DNA of 64,000 nucleotides from Phyllobacterium sp. OV277. GTDB lineage: Bacteria; Pseudomonadota; Alphaproteobacteria; Rhizobiales; Rhizobiaceae. This document shows, piece after piece, positions 971 to 61,263 of this stretch (the first letter of the stretch is position 1; the number at the start of each line of letters is the position of its first letter). The stretch is taken from positions 62,001-126,000 of the forward strand of contig NZ_FNIY01000004.1 of the NCBI RefSeq assembly GCF_900104355.1, in the 5' to 3' direction. The notes under the pieces are model-generated. The model made no database searches. It saw nothing but the letters and a program-made list of their open reading frames with translations, and was not told the origin of the DNA. The translations under genes were made by a program, and so were the position numbers.

Positions 971-1850
971 CGCGAGATAGGTGCTCGACCAGTTCCCGTG
1001 CGTGAGGATGCAAATCATCAAATCTGCGCGCACAAATTGCGAGATGCCGGGTGGCCCATATGTCAGTCAAACGGATCGAATGAATTGTCATTGAGCGGCG
1101 ATATCTTTTGGCGGCTGTTTCCGGAACGATTCCCACACCGACACCATGCGCAACCATGCGGCAAATGCTTTCAAAAGTCCGCATGCGGATGCGAAAAGAG
1201 AGGGGATGTCCAGCGCGCGCCGCATGATCCCCCAGATAATCCTGCAGCGGACTCCCCGCGCTGAGCCCGACAAATTCCTGTCCGGCCACATCCTGAAACG
1301 CGATATGGCGATGGCCGGCCCATTTGCTTGACCGGGCGACAACCAGGACAAGTCGATCAATGGCAAAGGATCGCAGTTCGAGTTTTCCGGGGTCAACCGC
1401 ATTGGTGATGATACCGACATCGGCTGAACCACCAGCCACTGCCTTGACGATTTCCGTGCTGAGACGTTCCTTCAGATCAATATCGACATTCGGTCGGCCA
1501 GCGAGAAAGATTGCGAGTTTCTCCGGCAGGAATTCCTTCATTGCAGCCGTATTCGCCAGCAGGCGAATATGGCTTTTCAATCCCTTTGAAAATTCGCCCA
1601 GTTCGCCGCGCATCTGCTCGATCTGTTGCAGGACAATGCGGGCATGATGGGCAACCGCATCACCCGCTGGCGTCGGTTCAACACCGCGTCTGCCCCGTTC
1701 AAGCAAGGGAAGACCGATCACCTCTTCCATGCCGCGCAGACGTGCGCTCGCGGACGGAAGTGTCATGTTGGCTTGCGCGGCACCATGGGTGATACTTCCA
1801 GCTTCCACAACCAGAAGAAAGAGGCGTAAATCTGTGAGGTCAAAGCGCAT
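963..1850 (-). CDS. LysR family transcriptional regulator
   Basis: A 295-residue LysR-type regulator. The N-terminal HTH covers about residues 3-62 (DLRLFLLVVEAGSITHGAAQ, then a recognition helix in SASARLRGMEE), and an effector-binding domain fills the rest. It is divergent from the TauE/SafE exporter gene with about 100 bases between them, the usual arrangement for a LysR regulator and its target. A 7-base inverted repeat in that gap is a candidate binding site. The likely role is control of the exporter in response to a small sulfur or organic acid ligand; this is inferred from position only. Confidence 0.9.
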   Translation of the reverse strand: MRFDLTDLRLFLLVVEAGSITHGAAQANMTLPSASARLRGMEEVIGLPLLERGRRGVEPTPAGDAVAHHARIVLQQIEQMRGELGEFSKGLKSHIRLLANTAAMKEFLPEKLAIFLAGRPNVDIDLKERLSTEIVKAVAGGSADVGIITNAVDPGKLELRSFAIDRLVLVVARSSKWAGHRHIAFQDVAGQEFVGLSAGSPLQDYLGDHAARAGHPLSFRIRMRTFESICRMVAHGVGVGIVPETAAKRYRRSMTIHSIRLTDIWATRHLAICARRFDDLHPHARELVEHLSRVN

Positions 1851-1947: not shown

Positions 1948-2697
1948 ATGTTTGATTTGCCCCTCGCCTCCCTTCTTATCATTGCGCTCACATTCTTTCT
2001 TGCCGGGATCGTCAAGGGCGTCACCGGCATGGGCTTACCGACTGTTGCCATGGGCATTCTCGGCACGATTATGCCACCGGCCGGTGCCGCCGCCCTTCTG
2101 CTCGTGCCATCCTTCGTGACCAACGTGCTGCAATTATTGTCCGGACCAAGCTTTGCCGCTCTCGCATTGCGCCTATGGGCAATGATGCTTGCCATTTTAT
2201 TGGGAACTATCGCCGGGTCCTGGCTCATGGCCAATGATACCGCAGGCTGGACCACAATGGGTTTAGGCGCTGCGCTGATGATCTATGCCGGCTACAGTCT
2301 TATGGCGCGGCAACTATCGGTCCCGCGAAATCTGGAGCCTCTCCTGTCACCGCTCATCGGCGTCATCACGGGCGTTGTAACCGGCGCAACAGGTGTGTTT
2401 GTCATTCCTGCCGTCCCCTACCTGCAATCGCTCGGTTTGACCAAGGATGATTTGATACAGGCTCTTGGCCTATCCTTTACTGTTTCAACCATAGCCCTTG
2501 GCGTCGGATTGACATCAGGCGGAGCCTTGCAGCTCGACAGTTTGAGCACATCCACGCTTGCTCTGGCACCGGCACTATTGGGTATGTGGTGCGGCCAGAA
2601 GGTACGCAATGCGATCAGCCCCACATCATTCCGCCGCTGGTTCCTGATCTGCCTCCTGCTGCTGGGGCTGGAACTCGTCTTAAAACAGCTATTCTGA
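1948..2697 (+). CDS. TauE/SafE family membrane exporter/permease
   Basis: Integral membrane protein of 249 residues from the ATG at 1948; an upstream ATG at 1900 would add 16 poorly hydrophobic residues and is less likely. It has the TauE/SafE (COG0730) pattern: about seven or eight hydrophobic helices, an early helix ending in FFLAGIVKGVTGMGLPT and a second half beginning LIGVITGVVTGATGVFVIP, the internal duplication typical of the family. Members move small anions such as sulfite, sulfoacetate or other organic sulfonates and acids across the inner membrane. Substrate is not determinable here. The divergent LysR gene is the probable regulator. Confidence 0.88.
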   Translation: MFDLPLASLLIIALTFFLAGIVKGVTGMGLPTVAMGILGTIMPPAGAAALLLVPSFVTNVLQLLSGPSFAALALRLWAMMLAILLGTIAGSWLMANDTAGWTTMGLGAALMIYAGYSLMARQLSVPRNLEPLLSPLIGVITGVVTGATGVFVIPAVPYLQSLGLTKDDLIQALGLSFTVSTIALGVGLTSGGALQLDSLSTSTLALAPALLGMWCGQKVRNAISPTSFRRWFLICLLLLGLELVLKQLF

Positions 2698-2781
2698 CAT
2701 CCACCTATTGCTCATTTTTCTTGCACTTCTATTTGGGAGCCGCTTAGTTTCGACCGCCAGTTGAAACAAGAGGAATGATCC

Positions 2782-3429
2782 ATGTCGAAACTTTACGTTC
2801 GCAGCTTCTCTTTATCCTTGGATGGTTATGGCGCAGGCCCTGATCAAAGCTTAGATAATCCACTTGGCGTGAACGGAATGTCCCTGCACCAGTGGGCCTT
2901 TACCACACGCACGTTTCAAAAGATGTTTGGTCAGGATGGCGGCGTAACTGGGATCGATGATGACTTCGCTAAACTCGGCTTCGACAACATCGGAGCGTGG
3001 ATCCTTGGACGCAACATGTTCGGTCCGGTGAGAGGGCCCTGGCCCGATGATAGCTGGAAAGGATGGTGGGGTGATAATCCGTCCTACCACGCTCCCGTTT
3101 TCGTTCTGACGCATCATGAGCGTCCGTCTATCGTGATGGAAGGTGGAACAACATTTCATTTTGTGACAGATGGTATCCAAAGCGCGCTGACACAGGCCAA
3201 GGCTGCGGCTGGCGGAAAGGATGTGCGGGTTGGCGGCGGCGTTGATACGGTCAAACAATACCTGCGGGCGCGTCTTATCGACGAGTTGCATCTCGCCGTA
3301 TCACCGGTGTTTCTGGGCCAAGGTGAAAACCTGTTTTCCGATATTGATCTTCGCAGCCTCGGATACGTTTTTGGCCGCAGTGTAGCCACTCCCAATGCTA
3401 CCCATCTCATTATTACCAAGGAAAGTTAG
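2782..3429 (+). CDS. Dihydrofolate reductase/RibD C-terminal-like family protein
   Basis: A 215-residue cytoplasmic protein with the RibD C-terminal (dihydrofolate-reductase-like) fold. It begins with a beta strand and SLDGYGAGPDQS, has the GRNMFGPVRGPW segment and the cofactor-site signature GGKDVRVGGGVDTVKQYLRARLIDELHLAVSPVFLGQG. Family members bind NAD(P)H; most stand-alone copies have no known substrate. An AAGAGGAA ribosome binding site precedes the ATG. It stands alone between the exporter gene and a bidirectional terminator. Confidence 0.87.
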   Translation: MSKLYVRSFSLSLDGYGAGPDQSLDNPLGVNGMSLHQWAFTTRTFQKMFGQDGGVTGIDDDFAKLGFDNIGAWILGRNMFGPVRGPWPDDSWKGWWGDNPSYHAPVFVLTHHERPSIVMEGGTTFHFVTDGIQSALTQAKAAAGGKDVRVGGGVDTVKQYLRARLIDELHLAVSPVFLGQGENLFSDIDLRSLGYVFGRSVATPNATHLIITKES

Positions 3430-29329: not shown

Positions 29330-30124
29330 TTAGAGGTCGGCAGGGATAGGTGCGCCCAGCCATTTCTGGGAGATTGCTGTCAACGTGCCATCGGTTTTGG
29401 CTGAAGAGATGATGCTGTTGATTTTCTCCAGAAGCTTTGGCTCGTTCTTGTTCAGGCCGATAGAACAGGGTGAATTCTTGATCAGGAACTTTAGCTCCGG
29501 CCGTTTTGGCGGGTTCTTGGCAAGAATCGCTGCAGCAACAACATTGCCCGTGGCGATAACCTCGACCTGGCCAGACAGGAATGCCGAGATTGTGCCATTA
29601 TTGTCTTCGTAGCGCTTGATGACGCTGTCGCCGGGTGCGATCTTGGTAAGCTCCAGATCTTCGATCGCACCGCGCGTGACGCCGATCGTTTTTCCAGCCA
29701 AATCTTCAGCTTTGGAGATTGCTACCGTTGCAGGTCCAAACACACCATTGAAGAATGGGACGTAAGGCGCCGAAAAATCGATCACCGCTTCGCGTTCGGC
29801 ATTCTTGCCAAGACTGGAAATTACCAGATCAACCTTGTTTGTCTGCAAATAGGGAATTCGGTTGGCGCTTGTCACCGGGACGAGTTCCGTCTTCACCCCC
29901 AGTTTTTCGGCAATCAGATTGGCTACATCAATGTCATAGCCCATCGGCGTCATATCAGTGCCAACGCTGCCAAATGGCGGGAAATCCTGCGGGACGGCCA
30001 CACGAAGCACTCCGCGGGATGCAATATCCGCCAAAGCATCGGCAGACGCCGTACCTATTGGGCAAAGCGATCCAATCATCAGGATTGCCGCACCAAGAAT
30101 TTTGAATAGTGATCTGCTGTTCAT
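29330..30124 (-). CDS. Polar amino-acid ABC transporter substrate-binding protein (second system)
   Basis: A 264-residue periplasmic binding protein (SBP_bac_3) with signal peptide at residues 1-29 (ILGAAILMIGSLCPIGTASADA). The mature part has RGVLRVAVPQDFPPFGSVGTDMTPMGYDIDVANLIAEKLGVKTELVP, with the conserved ligand segment DLVISSLGKNAEREAVIDFSAPY. An ATG at 30139 would add five residues. First gene of the minus-strand importer. The site differs enough from the plus-strand binding protein that a different amino acid is likely. Confidence 0.91.
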   Translation of the reverse strand: MNSRSLFKILGAAILMIGSLCPIGTASADALADIASRGVLRVAVPQDFPPFGSVGTDMTPMGYDIDVANLIAEKLGVKTELVPVTSANRIPYLQTNKVDLVISSLGKNAEREAVIDFSAPYVPFFNGVFGPATVAISKAEDLAGKTIGVTRGAIEDLELTKIAPGDSVIKRYEDNNGTISAFLSGQVEVIATGNVVAAAILAKNPPKRPELKFLIKNSPCSIGLNKNEPKLLEKINSIISSAKTDGTLTAISQKWLGAPIPADL

Positions 30125-30368
30125 TTGCAAGCTTCCCAATTGGTCAATATCAGGAATGCCAAAGCAATTGTCGTGCCAAGAACCATAGAATTTGACTGGG
30201 ACTGTACAGGTAGCTTACATCCGATCAATTGATCAGGGAGTCGCGCTCATAACTGAAAAGCGCGCTGCTCTTTATATCGGCACAAATACGCGAATGATCA
30301 AATTATGAGCACGACACTCCATAAGGACACGCCGCATTTTGATTCCCGTCAAATCGCAACGCGACAAT

Positions 30369-30387
30369 TTGCATAGCTAATATGCAA
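30369..30387. promoter_or_regulatory. Inverted repeat upstream of the small RNA
   Basis: TTGCATA (30369-30375) and TATGCAA (30381-30387) with a 5-base spacer, about 45-60 bases before the predicted 5' end of the small RNA. It could be a site for an activator or repressor of the RNA or of the divergent binding-protein gene. Confidence 0.4.
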
Positions 30388-30430
30388 CTTTGTATGTTGC
30401 TCCAAATTTGAGCGATGCTATTTTGGAGAT

Positions 30431-30540
30431 GTTAGGTTCTTTCCTCCCAGAAATCCTAACGCCGAATGCAGCAACCTCCTCCCTGCTGCATTTACAATCA
30501 AGGCCCAGCGCACCTCCTCCCGCGTTGGGCCTTTTGCTTT
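30431..30540 (+). ncRNA. Small RNA with three anti-Shine-Dalgarno hairpin loops (alpha-r14/NfeR1, cuckoo-RNA-like)
   Basis: Three consecutive hairpins are visible. Hairpin 1: GTTAGG (30431-30436) with CCTAAC (30455-30460), loop region containing TTCCTCCC. Hairpin 2: AATGCAGCA (30465-30473) with TGCTGCATT (30484-30492), loop ACCTCCTCCC. Hairpin 3, the terminator: AAGGCCCAGCGC (30500-30511) with GCGTTGGGCCTT (30522-30533), the same loop ACCTCCTCCC, then TTTTGCTTT. CCTCC loops match the anti-SD end of 16S rRNA and are the hallmark of the rhizobial alpha-r14 (NfeR1) and Rhodobacter CcsR sRNAs, which base-pair with ribosome binding sites in trans. A possible promoter is TTGCTC (30397-30402) with TATTTT (30419-30424). 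The 5' end is estimated. Confidence 0.85.
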
Positions 30541-30691
30541 ATGGCTCCCTACACAATCGCAAAAGTCGTTAAATCGCATCGAAATGGATGGTCGCAATCA
30601 TTCATGTTTTGACGCTCTTTGTGTTTTCTCCCACGTTTCCACAACCTATGGTATAATCTGCGAGGTAACGGTTTCAAAAAGGAGAAACTTT

Positions 30692-30865
30692 ATGCAACTG
30701 AGCGCACCTACGAAAATTGTGTTTATTATCGCGGTGATACTGGCCGTGCTATCGCTGCTTCCGGTGGTTGGAATTGCAGTGGGAGTTCTTGGCGCCTACA
30801 GCTATTGGTTGCTGCTTGTTGCTTTTATCGTGCTTGCAGCCGGTAGCCTGTTTAAAGGCGTTTAA
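30692..30865 (+). CDS. Small two-helix membrane protein
   Basis: A 57-residue protein with AAAAAGGAGAAA before the ATG, a strong ribosome binding site that decides this start over a longer upstream frame. Two hydrophobic helices are clear: KIVFIIAVILAVLSLLPVVGIAVG and YWLLLVAFIVLAAGSLF, with very short termini. It matches the look of small conserved rhizobial inner-membrane proteins with no known function. It lies 150 bases after the small RNA terminator in the same direction. Confidence 0.75.
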   Translation: MQLSAPTKIVFIIAVILAVLSLLPVVGIAVGVLGAYSYWLLLVAFIVLAAGSLFKGV

Positions 30866-30930
30866 AACCAGCGCCGCCCGGCGATAAACGCCACCTGCCA
30901 TGTCACGAGGCACGCTTCGTGGGTTGAGTA

Positions 30931-31794
30931 CTATTCTGCGTCCACGTCAGAAATGCGGGTCAGAATGCTGGCATACATTCCAGTCGTGCGGAATTCAGTC
31001 GGGCTTGCCCCATATATTCGCCTGAACACCTTTGAAAAATAATTAGCGTCGTCAAAACCGGTCATGATCGCAACCTCCTTAACCGGCAGGAAGGCTGCGT
31101 TTGTCAGAAGCTTCGTTGCGCGCTGCATCCGCTTCTGCAGGACAAACTCCGCAGGTGGCAGACCTTCACACTCGGCGAAGACGCGCGAGAAATGCGCACG
31201 GCTCAGACCGGAAACATTTGCCAGTTCTTCAACGGGAAGTGGTTTGTCGAGATTGGCACTAATGTGATCGATGACCGGCTGCATGACCGTCTTCTCATGC
31301 TGGTCAACAGGGTGCGAGCCGAACACGCCATCGTAGAGTGCCATGGCAGCCTCATAGGCAATGGCCGACGCGCGGCCAGCGGTTTCCGCATCCATGATCA
31401 GGCGCATGCTACAATCGGCAAGATGCTGGATCGTCTCATTTGGTAGCCTCAAAACTGGCCCTTGCGCCGCGAGAATCGAACGATGAATGCGCAACGCTTC
31501 CTCACCATTCATCGAGATCCAGAAATACTCCCAGTGATCGCCCTTCTCCAGCCAATAGCGGTGGTTATGCGGCACAAGCACGAGCAGAGTTTCACCCTCC
31601 CGCACTTTATAGTTCCGGTTTTCATAGCGCAGCGTGCCCGTTCCGCTGATCGTATGCTGCAGGACAGTAAAGGGGGTCTGCCCCCGCTTGCGGCCATCCC
31701 AATCATAGATTTCATCACGGCGCACTTCATAACCGGTGCTGGTTGGCATGGTATGAAGCGTATGGCGCCCCCGCGGCAGGGAAACCGTCTTCAT
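30931..31794 (-). CDS. agpT: AraC family regulator of alpha-galactoside use
   Basis: A 287-residue regulator with an N-terminal cupin-like sensing domain (TPFTVLQHTISGTGTLRYENRNYKVREGETLLVLVPHNHRYWL) and a C-terminal AraC HTH pair (LPVEELANVSGLSRAHFSRVFAECEGLPPAEFVLQKRMQRA and PVKEVAIMTGFDDANYFSKVFRRIYGASPTEFR). It is divergent from the alpha-galactosidase/ABC operon, the position held by AgpT in S. meliloti, where it controls alpha-galactoside genes. The name is given on order and family; the ligand is presumably an alpha-galactoside such as melibiose or raffinose. A longer start at 31827 is possible. Confidence 0.82.
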   Translation of the reverse strand: MKTVSLPRGRHTLHTMPTSTGYEVRRDEIYDWDGRKRGQTPFTVLQHTISGTGTLRYENRNYKVREGETLLVLVPHNHRYWLEKGDHWEYFWISMNGEEALRIHRSILAAQGPVLRLPNETIQHLADCSMRLIMDAETAGRASAIAYEAAMALYDGVFGSHPVDQHEKTVMQPVIDHISANLDKPLPVEELANVSGLSRAHFSRVFAECEGLPPAEFVLQKRMQRATKLLTNAAFLPVKEVAIMTGFDDANYFSKVFRRIYGASPTEFRTTGMYASILTRISDVDAE

Positions 31795-32024
31795 GCTATG
31801 CCCGGTATCGATCAGTTTTTGCAGCACAAAATTACCCTCAAAAGCATAATCCCTCTCTAGTCGCTCCCATGAATATACGCATAATGCTGGGTAAGAACAG
31901 CAGATGAACTGTTTGCGACCAATGTTGAAAGAGGGAAAGACAGGAAAAACCTGATCTTTGGAGCGCGCTTGAAAGCCGGGCTCCGCCGTATTGTTCTTAT
32001 CCGTTCCGAATGATCGAGGTCGAC

Positions 32025-33491
32025 ATGAGCAGTTTCAAAATCGCTATCATTGGCGCTGGCAGCGTGGGGTTCACAAAAAAGCTCTTCACCGACATTCTCT
32101 GCGTGCCGGAATTCAAGGATATTGAATTCGCTCTGACCGACGTCAGTGAACATAACCTCAAGATGATCAAGGCAATTCTGGATCGTGTTGTTGAGGCCAA
32201 TAATCTTCCGACGCGCGTGACAGCCACGACAGACCGACGCAAGGCCATCGAAGGCGCTCGCTATGTTATAAGCTGTGTACGGGTCGGTGGACTTGAGGCC
32301 TATGCGGACGATATCCGCATTCCCCTGAAATATGGCATAGATCAGTGTGTGGGCGATACAATCTGCGCAGGCGGCATCCTCTATGGACAGCGCAATATTC
32401 CCGTCATTCTCGATTTCTGCGAGGACATCCGCGAGCTTGCGGAACCCGGTGCGAAATTCCTGAACTATGCCAATCCCATGGCCATGAATACCTGGGCTGC
32501 TATCGAATATGGCAAAGTCGATACGATAGGGCTTTGCCATGGCGTTCAGCATGGTGCGGAACAGATCGCAGAAATTCTGGGTGCCAAATCCAAGGATGAG
32601 CTTGACTACATCTGCTCGGGCATCAACCACCAGACATGGTTTGTCGATATTCGCCTGCGCGGCCGCAAGATTGGCAAGGATGAACTTATTGCCGCGTTCG
32701 AAGCCCATCCCGTTTTCTCACAACAGGAAAAGCTGCGCATTGATGTTCTCAAGCGTTTCGGCGTCTATTCCACTGAAAGCAACGGCCACCTCTCGGAATA
32801 CCTGCCCTGGTATCGCAAACGTCCTGAAGAGATCGCCAAATGGATCGACATGTCCGACTGGATTCATGGTGAGACTGGCGGCTATCTGCGTTATTCGACG
32901 GAAACGCGGAACTGGTTCGAAACCGAGTTTCCGCAGTTTCTGGAGGCCGCAGCAAAGCCCATTGATCCGGCCCGCCGCTCCAACGAGCACGCCAGCCATA
33001 TTCTTGAAGCGCTGGAAACCGGGCGTGTCTATCGAGGCCATTTCAACACGCGCAATACCGGGATCATCACGAATCTCCCCGCCGACGCGATTATTGAATC
33101 GCCGGGATTTGTCGACCGGTTTGGTATCAATATGGTCTCCGGCATTACATTACCGGAGGCGTGTGCGGCCACATGCATTTCATCGATCAATGTGCAGCGC
33201 ATGGCCGTCCATGCCGCAATCAGCGGCGATATTGATCTTTTGAAACTTGCCGTTCTGCACGATCCGTTGGTCGGCGCTGTGTGCACACCTGAGGAAGTCT
33301 GGCAGATGGTCGATGAAATGATTGTCGCCCAAGCGCAATGGTTGCCGCAATATGCCCATGCCATTGACGATGCGAAAGAGCGCCTGCGCCACAAGACGGT
33401 AGCGACGCGCGAATGGAAGGGCGTCGCCAGCCGTTCAGTACGCTCTATTGAAGAGCTGAGAGCAGAAAAAGCATTGATGAAACAGGCGTGA
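32025..33491 (+). CDS. agaL1: Family 4 glycoside hydrolase (alpha-galactosidase)
   Basis: A 488-residue GH4 enzyme needing NAD and a divalent metal. The Rossmann start is FKIAIIGAGSVGFTKKLFTDIL. Metal-ligand motifs are GLCHGVQHG (Cys) and SGINHQTWF (His), and the substrate region includes NYANPMAMNTWA. GH4 enzymes cleave alpha-galactosides by an oxidation-elimination route in the cytosol. GAGG precedes the ATG at 32025. First gene of the operon; a second GH4 gene ends it. Alpha-glucosidase activity cannot be excluded. Confidence 0.88.
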   Translation: MSSFKIAIIGAGSVGFTKKLFTDILCVPEFKDIEFALTDVSEHNLKMIKAILDRVVEANNLPTRVTATTDRRKAIEGARYVISCVRVGGLEAYADDIRIPLKYGIDQCVGDTICAGGILYGQRNIPVILDFCEDIRELAEPGAKFLNYANPMAMNTWAAIEYGKVDTIGLCHGVQHGAEQIAEILGAKSKDELDYICSGINHQTWFVDIRLRGRKIGKDELIAAFEAHPVFSQQEKLRIDVLKRFGVYSTESNGHLSEYLPWYRKRPEEIAKWIDMSDWIHGETGGYLRYSTETRNWFETEFPQFLEAAAKPIDPARRSNEHASHILEALETGRVYRGHFNTRNTGIITNLPADAIIESPGFVDRFGINMVSGITLPEACAATCISSINVQRMAVHAAISGDIDLLKLAVLHDPLVGAVCTPEEVWQMVDEMIVAQAQWLPQYAHAIDDAKERLRHKTVATREWKGVASRSVRSIEELRAEKALMKQA

Positions 33492-33572
33492 ATTAATTTT
33501 TCCGGCTGCTTTCCCCTCTTGGAGGAGACGGGGTAGCGACATGAGCCGGGCCAGATTGAAGAGGGAGAGACG

Positions 33573-35648
33573 ATGAGCCATTTTCGCTATTTGAGTTCAC
33601 TCGCCATAGGTGTTTCAATGCTGGCTTTGCCGGTATTGGCGTCCGAGCCGACAGTTCCGCCGGAACCGCCATCCTTCAAAGCGCAGGCAAAAATCTCATA
33701 TGTCTCCAGAGATGCAATTCTCGAATTCAAAGCCCTTCCCGCCTATCACGAACCTGATTGGGTCACCGAAAAATTTGTAAAAGCGGGTAAGCTTCCAGCG
33801 GTCAAAGACCGGCTACCCAAAGAACCGCTTGTCTATAAAACAGGAAATATGCCCGATGGTATCGGTGTCTATGGTGATACATTGCGCCATGTCATTGGCG
33901 GACGGCCGGAAGGCTGGAACTATATCGGCGGCCAATCGCAAGGCTATGGGGGTATCGACATTGGCCTGTCTGAATGTCTGACGCGAACCGCACCGCTGTT
34001 TCAGGTTGAAGCAACGGATGTCGAGCCCTTGCCAAATCTGGCTAAGGGATGGGAATGGTCAGCGGATGGCCACACCCTGACCATGCATCTCATTGAGGGT
34101 GCGAAATGGTCCGATGGCGCGCCATTCGATGCGGATGATGTGATGTTCTATTGGGATGACAATGTCATTGATCCCAATGTTTCACCACTCAATGGCGCAA
34201 CCCAGGAGACGTTTGGTGTTGGCACGACGCTGAAGAAAATTGATGCCTATACCGTTGAATGGACATTCAAGAATGCTTTCCCGCGCCAGTATCTTTACGC
34301 CATGGCCTATGGAACATTTTGCCCGGGTCCAGCGCATATCCTCAAGACGAAGCACCCAAAATACGCTGCAACAACCTATGATCAATACAAAAACGGTTTC
34401 CCGCCTGAGTATATGAACATGCCGGTTATGGGGGCTTGGGTTCCAGTCGAGTACAGGCCTGACGATATCATCGTGCTTCGCCGCAACCCTTATTACTGGA
34501 AGGTGGACGAGGCTGGCAATCAGCTACCCTATGTCAACGAGATGCATTATAAGCTCTCAACCTGGGCCGATCGCGATGTCCAGACGGTTGCAGGTTCAGC
34601 TGATTTCTCCAATCTCGAACAGCCGGAAAACTTTGTGGAGTCGCTGAAACGTGCCGCGCAGGACAACGCGCCTGCCCGGCTTGCTTTCGGCCCGCGCCTC
34701 ATTGGTTACAATCTCGATATGAACTTTTCGGCCAATGGCTGGGGCGCACCCGATGCGCGCGGTCAAGCCGTTCGTGAACTCAATCGTGACGAGCACTTCC
34801 GCAAGGCGGTGACCATGGCGATCGACCGGAAGAAATTAGGCGAAGCGCTTGTCAAAGGTCCGTTCACCGCGATCTATCCCGGCGGGCTGTCATCGGCAAC
34901 GAGCTTCTATGACAGGCAATCCACCGTCTATTATCCATTTGATTTGGAAGGCGCAAAGGCAGAGCTGGCAAAGGCCGGTCTGAAGGACACCGACGGCAAT
35001 GGCATTGTCAACTTTCCGCCTGACAAAGCAGGCGGCAAGGATGTGGAAATCACCCTTCTGGTGAACAATGCCTACAGCACCGACAAGAACCTTGCGGAAG
35101 GCGTGATCGGTCAGCTGCAAAAGCTTGGCCTGCGCGTCATTCTCAATGCCGTGGATGCCAACCAGCGCGATGCCGCCAATTTTGGTGGACGGTTCGACTG
35201 GATGATCTGGCGCAACAATTCGGAACTCGCCTCTGTCGTACAGAACACCGAACAATTGGCTCCGGTGGGACCCCGCACCAGCTGGAACCATCGCGCTCCG
35301 GAAAATGGTCAGCTGGATCTGATGCCTTTCGAAGAAGAGATGGTGAAGATCGTCAACAAGTTCATCTCAAGCCAGGATAACACCGAACGAACCGAGCTGA
35401 TGAAACAGTACCAGAAGGTCTACACGACAAACGTGAATACGGTCGGATTAACGGAATTCGCAGGTGCTCTCGTTATCAACAAGCGCTTCTCCAACATTCC
35501 GTCCGGCGCGCCGATATTCATGTTCAACTGGGCCGAGGACGCCATCATCCGCGAGCGCGTGTTCGTCAAGGCGGACAAGCAGGGTGATTTTGAACTTTAC
35601 CCACAGCAATTACCCGGAAAGCCGGGCGGTCCCGGCCCGATGAACTGA
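33573..35648 (+). CDS. agpA: Alpha-galactoside ABC transporter substrate-binding protein
   Basis: A 691-residue periplasmic protein of family SBP_bac_5, longer than peptide-binding members but the size expected for AgpA-type sugar-binding relatives. The signal peptide spans about residues 1-23 (LAIGVSMLALPVLASE). Family blocks: LPNLAKGWEWSADGHTLTMHLIEGAKWSDGAPFDADDVMFYWDD and EHFRKAVTMAIDRKKLGEAL. GAGGGAGAG precedes the ATG. Although its fold is that of oligopeptide-binding proteins, the flanking GH4 enzymes argue for alpha-galactosides. A hairpin follows the stop. Confidence 0.88.
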   Translation: MSHFRYLSSLAIGVSMLALPVLASEPTVPPEPPSFKAQAKISYVSRDAILEFKALPAYHEPDWVTEKFVKAGKLPAVKDRLPKEPLVYKTGNMPDGIGVYGDTLRHVIGGRPEGWNYIGGQSQGYGGIDIGLSECLTRTAPLFQVEATDVEPLPNLAKGWEWSADGHTLTMHLIEGAKWSDGAPFDADDVMFYWDDNVIDPNVSPLNGATQETFGVGTTLKKIDAYTVEWTFKNAFPRQYLYAMAYGTFCPGPAHILKTKHPKYAATTYDQYKNGFPPEYMNMPVMGAWVPVEYRPDDIIVLRRNPYYWKVDEAGNQLPYVNEMHYKLSTWADRDVQTVAGSADFSNLEQPENFVESLKRAAQDNAPARLAFGPRLIGYNLDMNFSANGWGAPDARGQAVRELNRDEHFRKAVTMAIDRKKLGEALVKGPFTAIYPGGLSSATSFYDRQSTVYYPFDLEGAKAELAKAGLKDTDGNGIVNFPPDKAGGKDVEITLLVNNAYSTDKNLAEGVIGQLQKLGLRVILNAVDANQRDAANFGGRFDWMIWRNNSELASVVQNTEQLAPVGPRTSWNHRAPENGQLDLMPFEEEMVKIVNKFISSQDNTERTELMKQYQKVYTTNVNTVGLTEFAGALVINKRFSNIPSGAPIFMFNWAEDAIIRERVFVKADKQGDFELYPQQLPGKPGGPGPMN

Positions 35649-35669
35649 GCCTCCCAAGGACTCTGGCTG

Positions 35670-35695
35670 GCCGGTCGCACTGATGTGCGGCCGGC
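35670..35695 (+). terminator. Intercistronic hairpin after agpA
   Basis: GCCGGTCGCAC (35670-35680) pairs with GTGCGGCCGGC (35685-35695), 11 base pairs with one T/G wobble and a TGAT loop. No T-run follows; it is better read as an mRNA-stabilising or attenuating element between the binding-protein and permease genes. Confidence 0.6.
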
Positions 35696-35772
35696 TCATC
35701 AACCGAACAAGTCGATGGTGTGAGTACATTCATACCCGTTTTGAAACCAACACAAGAGAAGTGAACCGGCCC

Positions 35773-36783
35773 ATGTTACGATTCCTGCTTGTGCGTATCG
35801 CCTCTGCCATTCCGGTGTTGTTTGTGCTGAGCGTGGTTACCTTCGCCATTATTCAGGCGCCTCCCGGCGATTATTCCGATTACATCCGATCGCAATTGAT
35901 GAATCAGGGCGGAGCTTCCTTCGAAGCTGCGGACGCGCAAGCGCAGGCCTACCGGGTCGCCAACGGTCTCGACAAGCCTCTACCCGTTCAATACGTCAAC
36001 TGGGTGGTCGGCATGGTGACGCGCGGCGATTTTGGTCACAGCCTGTTCTACAACAAGCCGGTTGCCGACGTGGTCGGTGAACGATTACCACGAACTCTGT
36101 TGCTGGCACTCACCTGCCATATCCTCGCATCAATTATTGGCATCAGTTTTGGCATATTGGCCGCCACCCGGCAGTATTCATGGGTCGACAGCCTGCTCTC
36201 CGGCATATCATTCCTTGGCATGACCGTGCCGCGCTTCCTGATGGCGCTCATCATTGTCTACATCATGGTATTTCATTTCAACGTATCGGAGATCGGCAGT
36301 TTCAATTCACCGCGTTATGGCGGTGCGCCCTGGTCCTGGGACAAATTTGTCGATCTCGTCCGGCATGTCTGGCCCGTCGTCGCCATCGCAACATTTGGTG
36401 GCCTCGCCTACAATATGCGCGTGATGCGCGGCAACCTGCTCGATACGCTCAACGCCCAATATGTGGAAACAGCACGCGCCAAAGGTCTGAGTGAGGGCGC
36501 TGTCATCATGCGCCATGCGGTACCGAATGCACTCCACCCATTGATTATGTATCAGGGTGTCGTGTTGCCCTATATGCTGACCGGAGAGATCGAGACTGCG
36601 ATCATCTTTGCACTGCCGACCGTCGGTCCCGCCATCGTCGGATCCATGTGGGTTGGCGATGTCTACGTCACTGCCACCTTCATGCTGGTGCTTTCAGCCA
36701 CATTGATCGTCGGCAACATCATCGCAGACCTTCTGCTCGCCCTCATCGACCCACGGGTGCGGCAATATGGGGAGATGAAGTGA
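35773..36783 (+). CDS. agpB: Alpha-galactoside ABC transporter permease
   Basis: A 336-residue DppB-like permease. MLRFLLVRIASAIPVLFVLSVVTFAIIQAPPGDY is the typical N-terminus with the first helix, and ETARAKGLSEGAVIMRHAVPNALHPLIMYQGVVLPYMLTGEI is the EAA loop and the helix after it. About six helices. The TGA stop shares a base with the following ATG (TGATG). The ATG at 35773 is chosen; a GTG at 35761 is possible. Confidence 0.9.
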   Translation: MLRFLLVRIASAIPVLFVLSVVTFAIIQAPPGDYSDYIRSQLMNQGGASFEAADAQAQAYRVANGLDKPLPVQYVNWVVGMVTRGDFGHSLFYNKPVADVVGERLPRTLLLALTCHILASIIGISFGILAATRQYSWVDSLLSGISFLGMTVPRFLMALIIVYIMVFHFNVSEIGSFNSPRYGGAPWSWDKFVDLVRHVWPVVAIATFGGLAYNMRVMRGNLLDTLNAQYVETARAKGLSEGAVIMRHAVPNALHPLIMYQGVVLPYMLTGEIETAIIFALPTVGPAIVGSMWVGDVYVTATFMLVLSATLIVGNIIADLLLALIDPRVRQYGEMK

Positions 36784-60072: not shown

Positions 60073-61263
60073 TTATGCAGCCTTGGCAAGTTCGCCATGC
60101 GGATCGAGCACAAATTTCTGCGCTGCCCCCTTGTCGAAGCTCTCATAGCCTTGGGCCGCATCCTCCAGCGATATGATTCTGGCATTGACGATATCGGCAA
60201 TTGGCAAGCGGTCATAAAGGATCGCCTGCATGAGTTGACGATTGTACTTCAACACTGGCGTCTGACCCGTATGGAAAGATTGTGCCTTTGCCCAACCGAG
60301 GCCAAAACGCAAAGACAGGTTGCCTTGCTTGGCTGCGTTGTCGACCGCACCCGGATCTTCAGTGACATAAAGACCGGGAATACCAATGGACCCGGCGGCG
60401 CGCGTGATCTCCATCATCTGGTTCAACACAACAGCTGGCTGTTCGCCGCCGCTGTGACCGCGTGCCTCGAAACCCACAGCGTCAATGGCACTGTCAACTT
60501 CGTTGCTACCCGTCACCTGTGCGATCATATCACCAAGACGGTCGCTGGCGGACAGATCGATCGGTTCAAACCCAACTTTCGCGGCATGTGCAAGGCGCTC
60601 TTTGTTGAAGTCACCAATCATCACCACGGCAGCACCAAGAATGCGGGCTGAAGCAGCGGCAGCCAGCCCAACTGGTCCCGCTCCGGCAACATAGACAACC
60701 GAGCCAACACCGACACCCGCTTTCACCGCTCCATGAAATCCCGTAGGCAAAATATCGGAAAGCATCGTGAGATCCCGCATCTTAGCCATCGCGCGATCAC
60801 GATCAGGAATTTTCAGAAGGTTGAAGTCCGCATAGGGGACTGTCACATAACGCGCCTGACCACCGATCCAGCCACCCATGTCCACATAACCATAAGCACC
60901 CCCTGCCCGTGCAGGATTGACCGTCAGGCAAACACCTGTGTCTTGAGACTTGCATGTGCGGCACCGCCCGCATGCAACGTTGAATGGGACAGAGACAATA
61001 TCTCCCACGCAGAGCATTTCGACGTCGCGGCCCTTTTCAATGATCTCGCCAGTGATTTCATGACCAAGGACGAGTCCAGGCTCTGCAGTGGTACGACCGC
61101 GCACCATATGCTGATCTGACCCGCAAATGTTCGTAGAGATGACCTTGAGAACAACCGCATGTTCAATTCGGCGACCATCTGGCGCTTCAAGTTTTGGATC
61201 AAAGATGTCCTGTACTTCGACCTTACCCGGCCCCACATAGACGACGCCTCTGTTTTTGCTCAT
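60073..61263 (-). CDS. fdhA: Glutathione-independent formaldehyde dehydrogenase
   Basis: A 396-residue zinc MDR enzyme matching Pseudomonas putida FdhA in length and motifs: catalytic Cys in STNICGSDQHMVRG, GHEITGEI, structural zinc cysteines in CGRCRTCKSQDTGVC, the signature YVDMGGWIGGQARYVTVPYAD and cofactor motif YVAGAGPVGLAAA. It oxidises formaldehyde to formate with tightly bound NAD and can dismutate aldehydes. The start at 61263 follows GGGAGGAG. Stands alone; it detoxifies formaldehyde from methoxylated or methylated substrates. Confidence 0.93.
   Translation of the reverse strand: MSKNRGVVYVGPGKVEVQDIFDPKLEAPDGRRIEHAVVLKVISTNICGSDQHMVRGRTTAEPGLVLGHEITGEIIEKGRDVEMLCVGDIVSVPFNVACGRCRTCKSQDTGVCLTVNPARAGGAYGYVDMGGWIGGQARYVTVPYADFNLLKIPDRDRAMAKMRDLTMLSDILPTGFHGAVKAGVGVGSVVYVAGAGPVGLAAAASARILGAAVVMIGDFNKERLAHAAKVGFEPIDLSASDRLGDMIAQVTGSNEVDSAIDAVGFEARGHSGGEQPAVVLNQMMEITRAAGSIGIPGLYVTEDPGAVDNAAKQGNLSLRFGLGWAKAQSFHTGQTPVLKYNRQLMQAILYDRLPIADIVNARIISLEDAAQGYESFDKGAAQKFVLDPHGELAKAA

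Follow-up and report, generated by a model that had tools for sequence, protein, structure and literature searches.

An ar14-family small RNA gene in Phyllobacterium sp. OV277 with anti-Shine-Dalgarno loops on divergent stems

The CcsR RNAs are small RNAs with anti-Shine-Dalgarno loops. They lie behind a DUF1127 gene, and the term CIN1 is used where such a gene accompanies a CcsR-like RNA (PMC10253847). Hairpins that carry CCUCCUCCC in their loops on divergent stems were described in 2011 (PMC3927594), and NfeR1 (SmelC397) of Sinorhizobium meliloti, a member of the ar14 family, is reported to repress ntrB by pairing with the translation start of this gene through anti-Shine-Dalgarno motifs; two transporter mRNAs are also reported to be repressed, and the motifs are described as redundant (PMC10746234). 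The AbcR1 and AbcR2 RNAs (ar15, RF02345) likewise have anti-Shine-Dalgarno motifs and transporter mRNA targets, and AbcR1 is placed under the control of LsrB/VtlR (PMC8844928, PMC7486931). They belong, however, to another Rfam family, and the S. meliloti AbcR is reported to bind Hfq, whereas NfeR1 does not (PMC8844928). An RNA with two anti-Shine-Dalgarno loops has also been described from Bartonella (PMC7717549).

The locus considered here lies in a 64-kb stretch of DNA (64,000 nucleotides, the window) from Phyllobacterium sp. OV277. A preliminary description, made from the sequence alone, had read an RNA of the ar14/NfeR1 design at this place, and a covariance-model search confirms the reading and gives its exact position (Table 1). 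The match to RF02344 (ar14, NfeR1 family) reaches 73.4 bits, where the gathering threshold is 58.8 (E 2.5e-11; cmscan of the 64-kb window), and this E value is the decisive test against chance. It is the sole gathering-level Rfam RNA match in the window, which has no such match to the AbcR family ar15 (RF02345), and a covariance search of the organism's own genome places an ar14 match at the same position. The minimum-energy fold consists of the three consecutive hairpins that had been proposed, at about 30431–30533, with an energy of -44.7 kcal/mol; dinucleotide shuffles of the sequence average -25.03 kcal/mol (z -5.98), and none of 200 folds as well. The window RNA appears to be a genuine, unremarkable ar14 RNA. 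The family and its design are known, and what is new is the locus as an ar14 member, for which no published report was found in the open-licence papers searched; the shortened first motif, the upstream palindrome and the altered neighbourhood described below are variations within the family.

Table 1. Features of the window copy, predicted pairing sites in the window, and related loci elsewhere in the genome (coordinates of L001, L002, L005 and L188 are those of the respective locus)
Feature	Position	Strand	Basis and remarks
ar14-family small RNA (Rfam RF02344)	30425..30537	+	cmscan, 73.4 bits; full model 1-123
Hairpin 1	30431..30460	+	fold; loop with CCTCCC only (shorter anti-Shine-Dalgarno motif)
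Hairpin 2	30464..30493	+	fold; loop ACCTCCTCCC; motif at 30475-30483
Hairpin 3	30500..30533	+	fold; loop ACCTCCTCCC; motif at 30513-30521; T-run after it, probable intrinsic terminator
Palindrome TTGCATA-N5-TATGCAA, candidate regulator site	30369..30387	+	sequence; about 55 bases before Rfam start
Candidate sigma-70 promoter (-35-like GTTGCT, 16 bases, -10-like CTATTT)	30396..30423	+	by eye, from sequence and alignment; weak
57-residue, very hydrophobic small protein	30692-30865	+	AGGAG site; no Pfam match
Predicted pairing, zinc-binding dehydrogenase domain	start 61263	-	-15.8 kcal/mol
Predicted pairing	start 42654		-14.1 kcal/mol
Predicted pairing, periplasmic solute-binding protein	start 15604		-13.8 kcal/mol
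Predicted pairing, solute-binding protein family 3, first importer	start 24197		-13.7 kcal/mol
Predicted pairing, FAA hydrolase	start 62784		-13.7 kcal/mol
L001, ar14 copy	1501-1621	+	10-11 bases after DUF1127 gene
L002, ar14 copy	1501-1620	-	10-11 bases after DUF1127 gene
L005, ar14 copy	1501-1616	+	directly behind phasin gene; tRNA match at 1704-1777
L188, LysR gene, 298 residues (probable lsrB)	2376-3272	-	directly behind trxB; Phyllobacterium sp. OV277 genome

The RNA shares with NfeR1 its three hairpins, the presence of CCUCCUCCC in the loops and the divergence of the stems. Hairpins 2 and 3 differ in their stems but have the identical 10-base loop ACCTCCTCCC, as had been noticed beforehand, and in the predicted fold CCUCCUCCC is unpaired in both. 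Hairpin 1 is weaker than the preliminary description had it and differs from NfeR1 in having only CCUCCC in its loop (CCTCCC in the DNA) without CCTCCTCCC; its TCCTCCC is unchanged across the 22 aligned relatives. Within the 64 kb, CCTCCTCCC occurs twice, both times inside the RNA, against an expectation of 0.32 (two occurrences were reached in 4 of 100 shuffles). Directly 3' of hairpin 3 lies TTTTGCTTT, and the hairpin together with this T-run is probably an intrinsic terminator, as the preliminary description had it; the hairpin is absent from the list of a simple terminator scan, whose loop limit of 8 bases is exceeded by the 10-base loop, so that the terminator reading derives from the sequence and from the family.

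Conservation was followed in 20 Phyllobacterium genomes, the organism's own included. A DNA search found alignable RNA in 18 of them, at 22 loci, and short weak matches only in the other two; the alignment comprises the 22 loci and leaves aside two weak ones (L054, L055). The length of the RNA among these relatives varies from 107 to 111 nt, so reading frames shift from one to another, and in most of them similarity starts near 30357, from which it follows that RNA and promoter region move together. At the level of the family, the same kind of search gave matches in 8 of 121 genomes, namely the own genome, one other of the genus and six with weak matches that cover the RNA alone and not its upstream region. 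The full motif is present in loop 2 of all 22 sequences and in loop 3 of 21 (the exception being L056), in keeping with the proposal that the loops are conserved while the stems diverge. Relative to the window copy, the base-pair cells of stem 2 comprise 33 that are the same, 137 in which both sides have changed and still pair, 3 with one side changed and 7 unpaired, and those of stem 3 comprise 106, 73, 1 and 0, respectively, in counts where the both-side changes are mostly common to one clade and few events are therefore counted many times. These counts cover 21 of the 22 sequences, L056 being left out as its third loop lacks the motif. All 7 unpaired cells of stem 2 come from L057, whose stem pairs fully with a 9-base loop, one base shorter. 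The loops were located by the motif in the pair counts, and the constancy of the loops was tested only by the folds and the alignment of the 22 sequences.

We consider it highly probable that the locus encodes, as an independent gene with its own promoter, a trans-acting ar14 (NfeR1) small RNA that represses the translation of several mRNAs. The family membership, predicted fold, conserved loops, stem pairing and upstream palindrome are observed, and from the family we infer transcription, repression of translation, targets and regulator. NfeR1 itself is made as an independent transcript of roughly 115 nt, and the window copy would be expected from its family to be transcribed likewise. Transcription would start from the RNA's own promoter near 30431 and end after the third hairpin; the loops would then expose the anti-Shine-Dalgarno motif three times, twice in full and once shortened, and its pairing with ribosome binding sites of the GGAGG type may lower the translation of several mRNAs. 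Points against this reading include the lack of the full motif in hairpin 1, a promoter that is weak by consensus, the one-letter departure of the palindrome from the VtlR box, poor pairing with ntrB, the possibility that the copy is silent, and the small number of independent events behind the both-side stem changes.

A different possibility is that the window copy is a true ar14 member that is silent or decaying, little transcribed, and that other copies do the work. Northern blotting in S. meliloti is reported to have reliably detected one of six copies (PMC7143759), so the window copy could be silent as well; the first hairpin without the full motif, a score that is second lowest among the five copies over the cut-off in this genome, and the two Phyllobacterium genomes with short weak matches point in the same direction. 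However, the palindrome, the loops and the pairing have been kept in most of the 22 loci (18 genomes) while the letters of the stems changed, a pattern not easily reconciled with loss of function, and we hold a silent copy to be improbable.

For a trans-acting ar14 RNA, the pairing with ribosome binding sites that had been put forward is published for the family, which is reported to pair with translation starts (PMC10746234, PMC3927594). Pairing of the loops was predicted for 59 gene starts of the window, which were picked by a simple rule favouring good Shine-Dalgarno sites; absolute energies are biased by this rule, and nearby and other starts were treated alike. The amino-acid importer and the alpha-galactoside operon on either side had been hinted at as special targets, but no local excess was found. 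Loop-to-start energies average -7.63 kcal/mol over 13 nearby starts (25.7–40 kb, without the importer genes 24197 and 25090) and -7.69 over the 46 others (Mann-Whitney p 0.72); with the whole importer region, both of these genes included (24–40 kb), the values are -7.96 (n=15) versus -7.58 (n=44; Mann-Whitney p 0.51). The adjoining solute-binding protein gene pairs weakly, at -5.4 kcal/mol (start 30124) or, with the other choice of start, at -2.9. Individual starts do have strong predicted pairing, among them 24197 in the first importer (Table 1). The targets would probably include some mRNAs for transporter solute-binding proteins. The longest match to the RNA loop among the 59 starts, 8 bases, is GGGAGGAG just before the gene at 61263. 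Predicted pairing with ntrB of Phyllobacterium sp. OV277 is poor (-4.2 kcal/mol), a difference from NfeR1 which suggests that the S. meliloti nitrogen loop may not be conserved here.

The neighbouring genes were accordingly rejected as preferred targets: nearby starts pair no better than the others, and the RNA was found in the searched flanks of none of 80 alpha-galactosidase loci. The latter result refers to a blastn search (E ≤ 1e-3) of the flanks of 80 of at least 589 confirmed loci, a sample from which the own genome or its near kin are possibly absent and in which flanks reach up to 3.5 kb, some being shorter or missing; none has two copies of CCTCCTCCC on one strand. A link between the alpha-galactosidase operon and the RNA is thus unsupported by these homologous loci. 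One observation counts against rejecting this link, namely that the RNA stands beside the AraC gene in the own genome, in two others (G008, G009) and in a plasmid of Phyllobacterium sp. T1293. Gene neighbourhood says little about which mRNAs such an RNA targets.

Since the loops contain the core anti-Shine-Dalgarno sequence, their pairing is generic, and they might chiefly mimic the tail of the 16S rRNA or bait a protein instead of pairing with chosen mRNAs; the predicted energies here do roughly track ordinary Shine-Dalgarno strength. Against this, an S. meliloti RNA with all three motifs mutated is reported no longer to repress an ntrB fusion (PMC10746234), and we regard mimicry or baiting as the chief function of the loops as very unlikely.

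The window is part of a contig (C22) of 484,878 bases in a 5.33-Mb genome. The alpha-galactoside operon encodes a 493-residue protein with 96% identity to its counterpart on plasmid p_2 of Phyllobacterium sp. 628, and the T1293 plasmid record (397,619 bases) matches 96% of window positions 30000–36000 at 93.9% identity, and positions 30357–30700 at 91.7% identity; these matches suggest that the window is probably plasmid-borne. The surroundings of the RNA vary within the genus. A gene for a solute-binding protein, present upstream of the window copy, was found at none of the 21 other loci within flanks of about 1.5 kb. RNA and AraC gene are side by side in 3 of the 20 genus genomes and on the T1293 plasmid, and two further genomes have the 57-residue protein next to the RNA, at 93–100% identity. 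We give hardly any credence to the RNA being a cis-acting leader or attenuator of the gene for this 57-residue protein, with hairpin 3 ending transcription: the RNA does lie 155 bases upstream on the same strand, the two, together with the AraC gene, are adjacent in 3 of 22 loci, and the T1293 plasmid match spans both, but in 14 of the 22 loci the RNA stands beside another gene cluster whose gene downstream of the RNA is read towards it (one representative was tested and has a DUF1003 domain), and the whole-length ar14 match explains the RNA without any neighbour.

Phyllobacteriaceae are among the reported carriers of the ar14 family (PMC7143759), and, as for NfeR1, several copies are present per genome. 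The Phyllobacterium sp. OV277 genome has five matches over the cut-off in the covariance search, and all 20 Phyllobacterium genomes have 4 to 7 matches each at E ≤ 0.001, not all of them over the cut-off. More widely, ar14 matches were found in 114 of 121 genomes of the family at E ≤ 1e-5 (108 over the cut-off) and in 27 of 121 genomes of the order; 15 of these are over the cut-off, counting the own genome and three further members of the family. Fourteen control genomes gave no match at those limits; at E ≤ 10, nine had sub-threshold matches. Two of the sister copies, L001 and L002, lie right behind DUF1127 genes as the CcsR1–4 (cuckoo) RNAs of Rhodobacter sphaeroides do, and look like CIN1 (CcsR-type) units in Phyllobacterium; each RNA is preceded by a VtlR-type box at a distance of about 268 bases. 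The copy behind the phasin gene (L005) may be a 3'-end-derived RNA. No such gene stands in front of L003 or of the window copy (L004), and within 120 bases upstream of the latter no DUF1127-like frame ends. The window copy also differs from the CcsR RNAs in lying alone, as one three-hairpin RNA, not in a cluster of four. Of the two designs to which it had been likened, ar14/NfeR1 is borne out by the ar14 score, and the likeness to CcsR does not extend to the gene context. A weak sixth ar14 match (L006, 1501-1615, minus strand) is ar15 (AbcR) by Rfam, not ar14, and a further weak match (L007) has no gathering-level Rfam match.

A regulator-type site upstream of the start is a further likeness to NfeR1. 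The NfeR1 promoter in S. meliloti, where LsrB is reported to activate the RNA, is described as having separate LsrB (TGCA-N6-GCAT) and NtrC (TGC-N11-GCA) sites (PMC10746234), whereas the window copy has one palindrome, near -55. Measured from the Rfam start, the palindrome includes at -55 the sequence TGC-N11-GCA, described as the NtrC motif of the nfeR1 promoter (PMC10746234), and it is one letter off (TA for TG) the VtlR/LsrB box GCAT-N3-TG-N3-T (PMC7486931), which is placed at -61 to -49 of abcR1 (PMC8844928). Of the 22 aligned relatives, 19 retain TGC-N11-GCA and only 3 have the exact VtlR box. The candidate promoter downstream of the palindrome was recognized by eye, and a consensus promoter scan reported no promoter on the strand of the RNA.

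Transcription would probably be governed by LsrB/VtlR or by NtrC, acting through the palindrome that directly precedes the candidate promoter. By position LsrB appears the likelier regulator, by letters NtrC fits as well or better, and because the exact VtlR box is found in so few relatives, we put control of the window copy by LsrB/VtlR at about an even chance. In other genera, an LsrB/VtlR-like box (GCATTGCTGC..TGC and variants) stands at -57/-58 on the same strand, close to the place of the palindrome here, in 9 of 28 ar14 loci, spanning 8 of 26 genera, and at -96/-97 in 3 more, with 16 having it at neither place; these loci (L156–L183) are the best-scoring copies of 28 genomes from the 26 genera and not a random draw. 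By first-order shuffles the box of the window copy has a p of 0.007, and 7 of the 31 loci tested reach p<0.01; the fixed position of the box is a stronger argument than the shuffle p. Within the genus, 27 of 28 DUF1127-linked ar14 loci have an exact VtlR-type box upstream of the DUF1127 gene, at a distance of 259 to 269 bases from the RNA, in a scan of 33 loci that are mostly orthologues and were chosen by score. A box at a fixed distance, in the other genera as ahead of the DUF1127-ar14 units, suggests that LsrB may control more ar14 RNAs than those few for which this has been tried. A more far-reaching proposal, which we regard as doubtful, is that a single palindrome serves the activator LsrB and the repressor NtrC in competition, in a probably plasmid-borne Phyllobacterium branch of ar14 whose RNA and upstream site changed neighbourhood within the genus while the stems were rewritten and the loops kept.

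The genome contains a LysR gene directly behind trxB, the position described for lsrB in Rhizobiales (PMC11975290), and it is probably lsrB. About 1.5 kb beyond this lsrB-like gene lies the ar15 (AbcR) RNA L006, with a 349-residue frame on the opposite strand between them.
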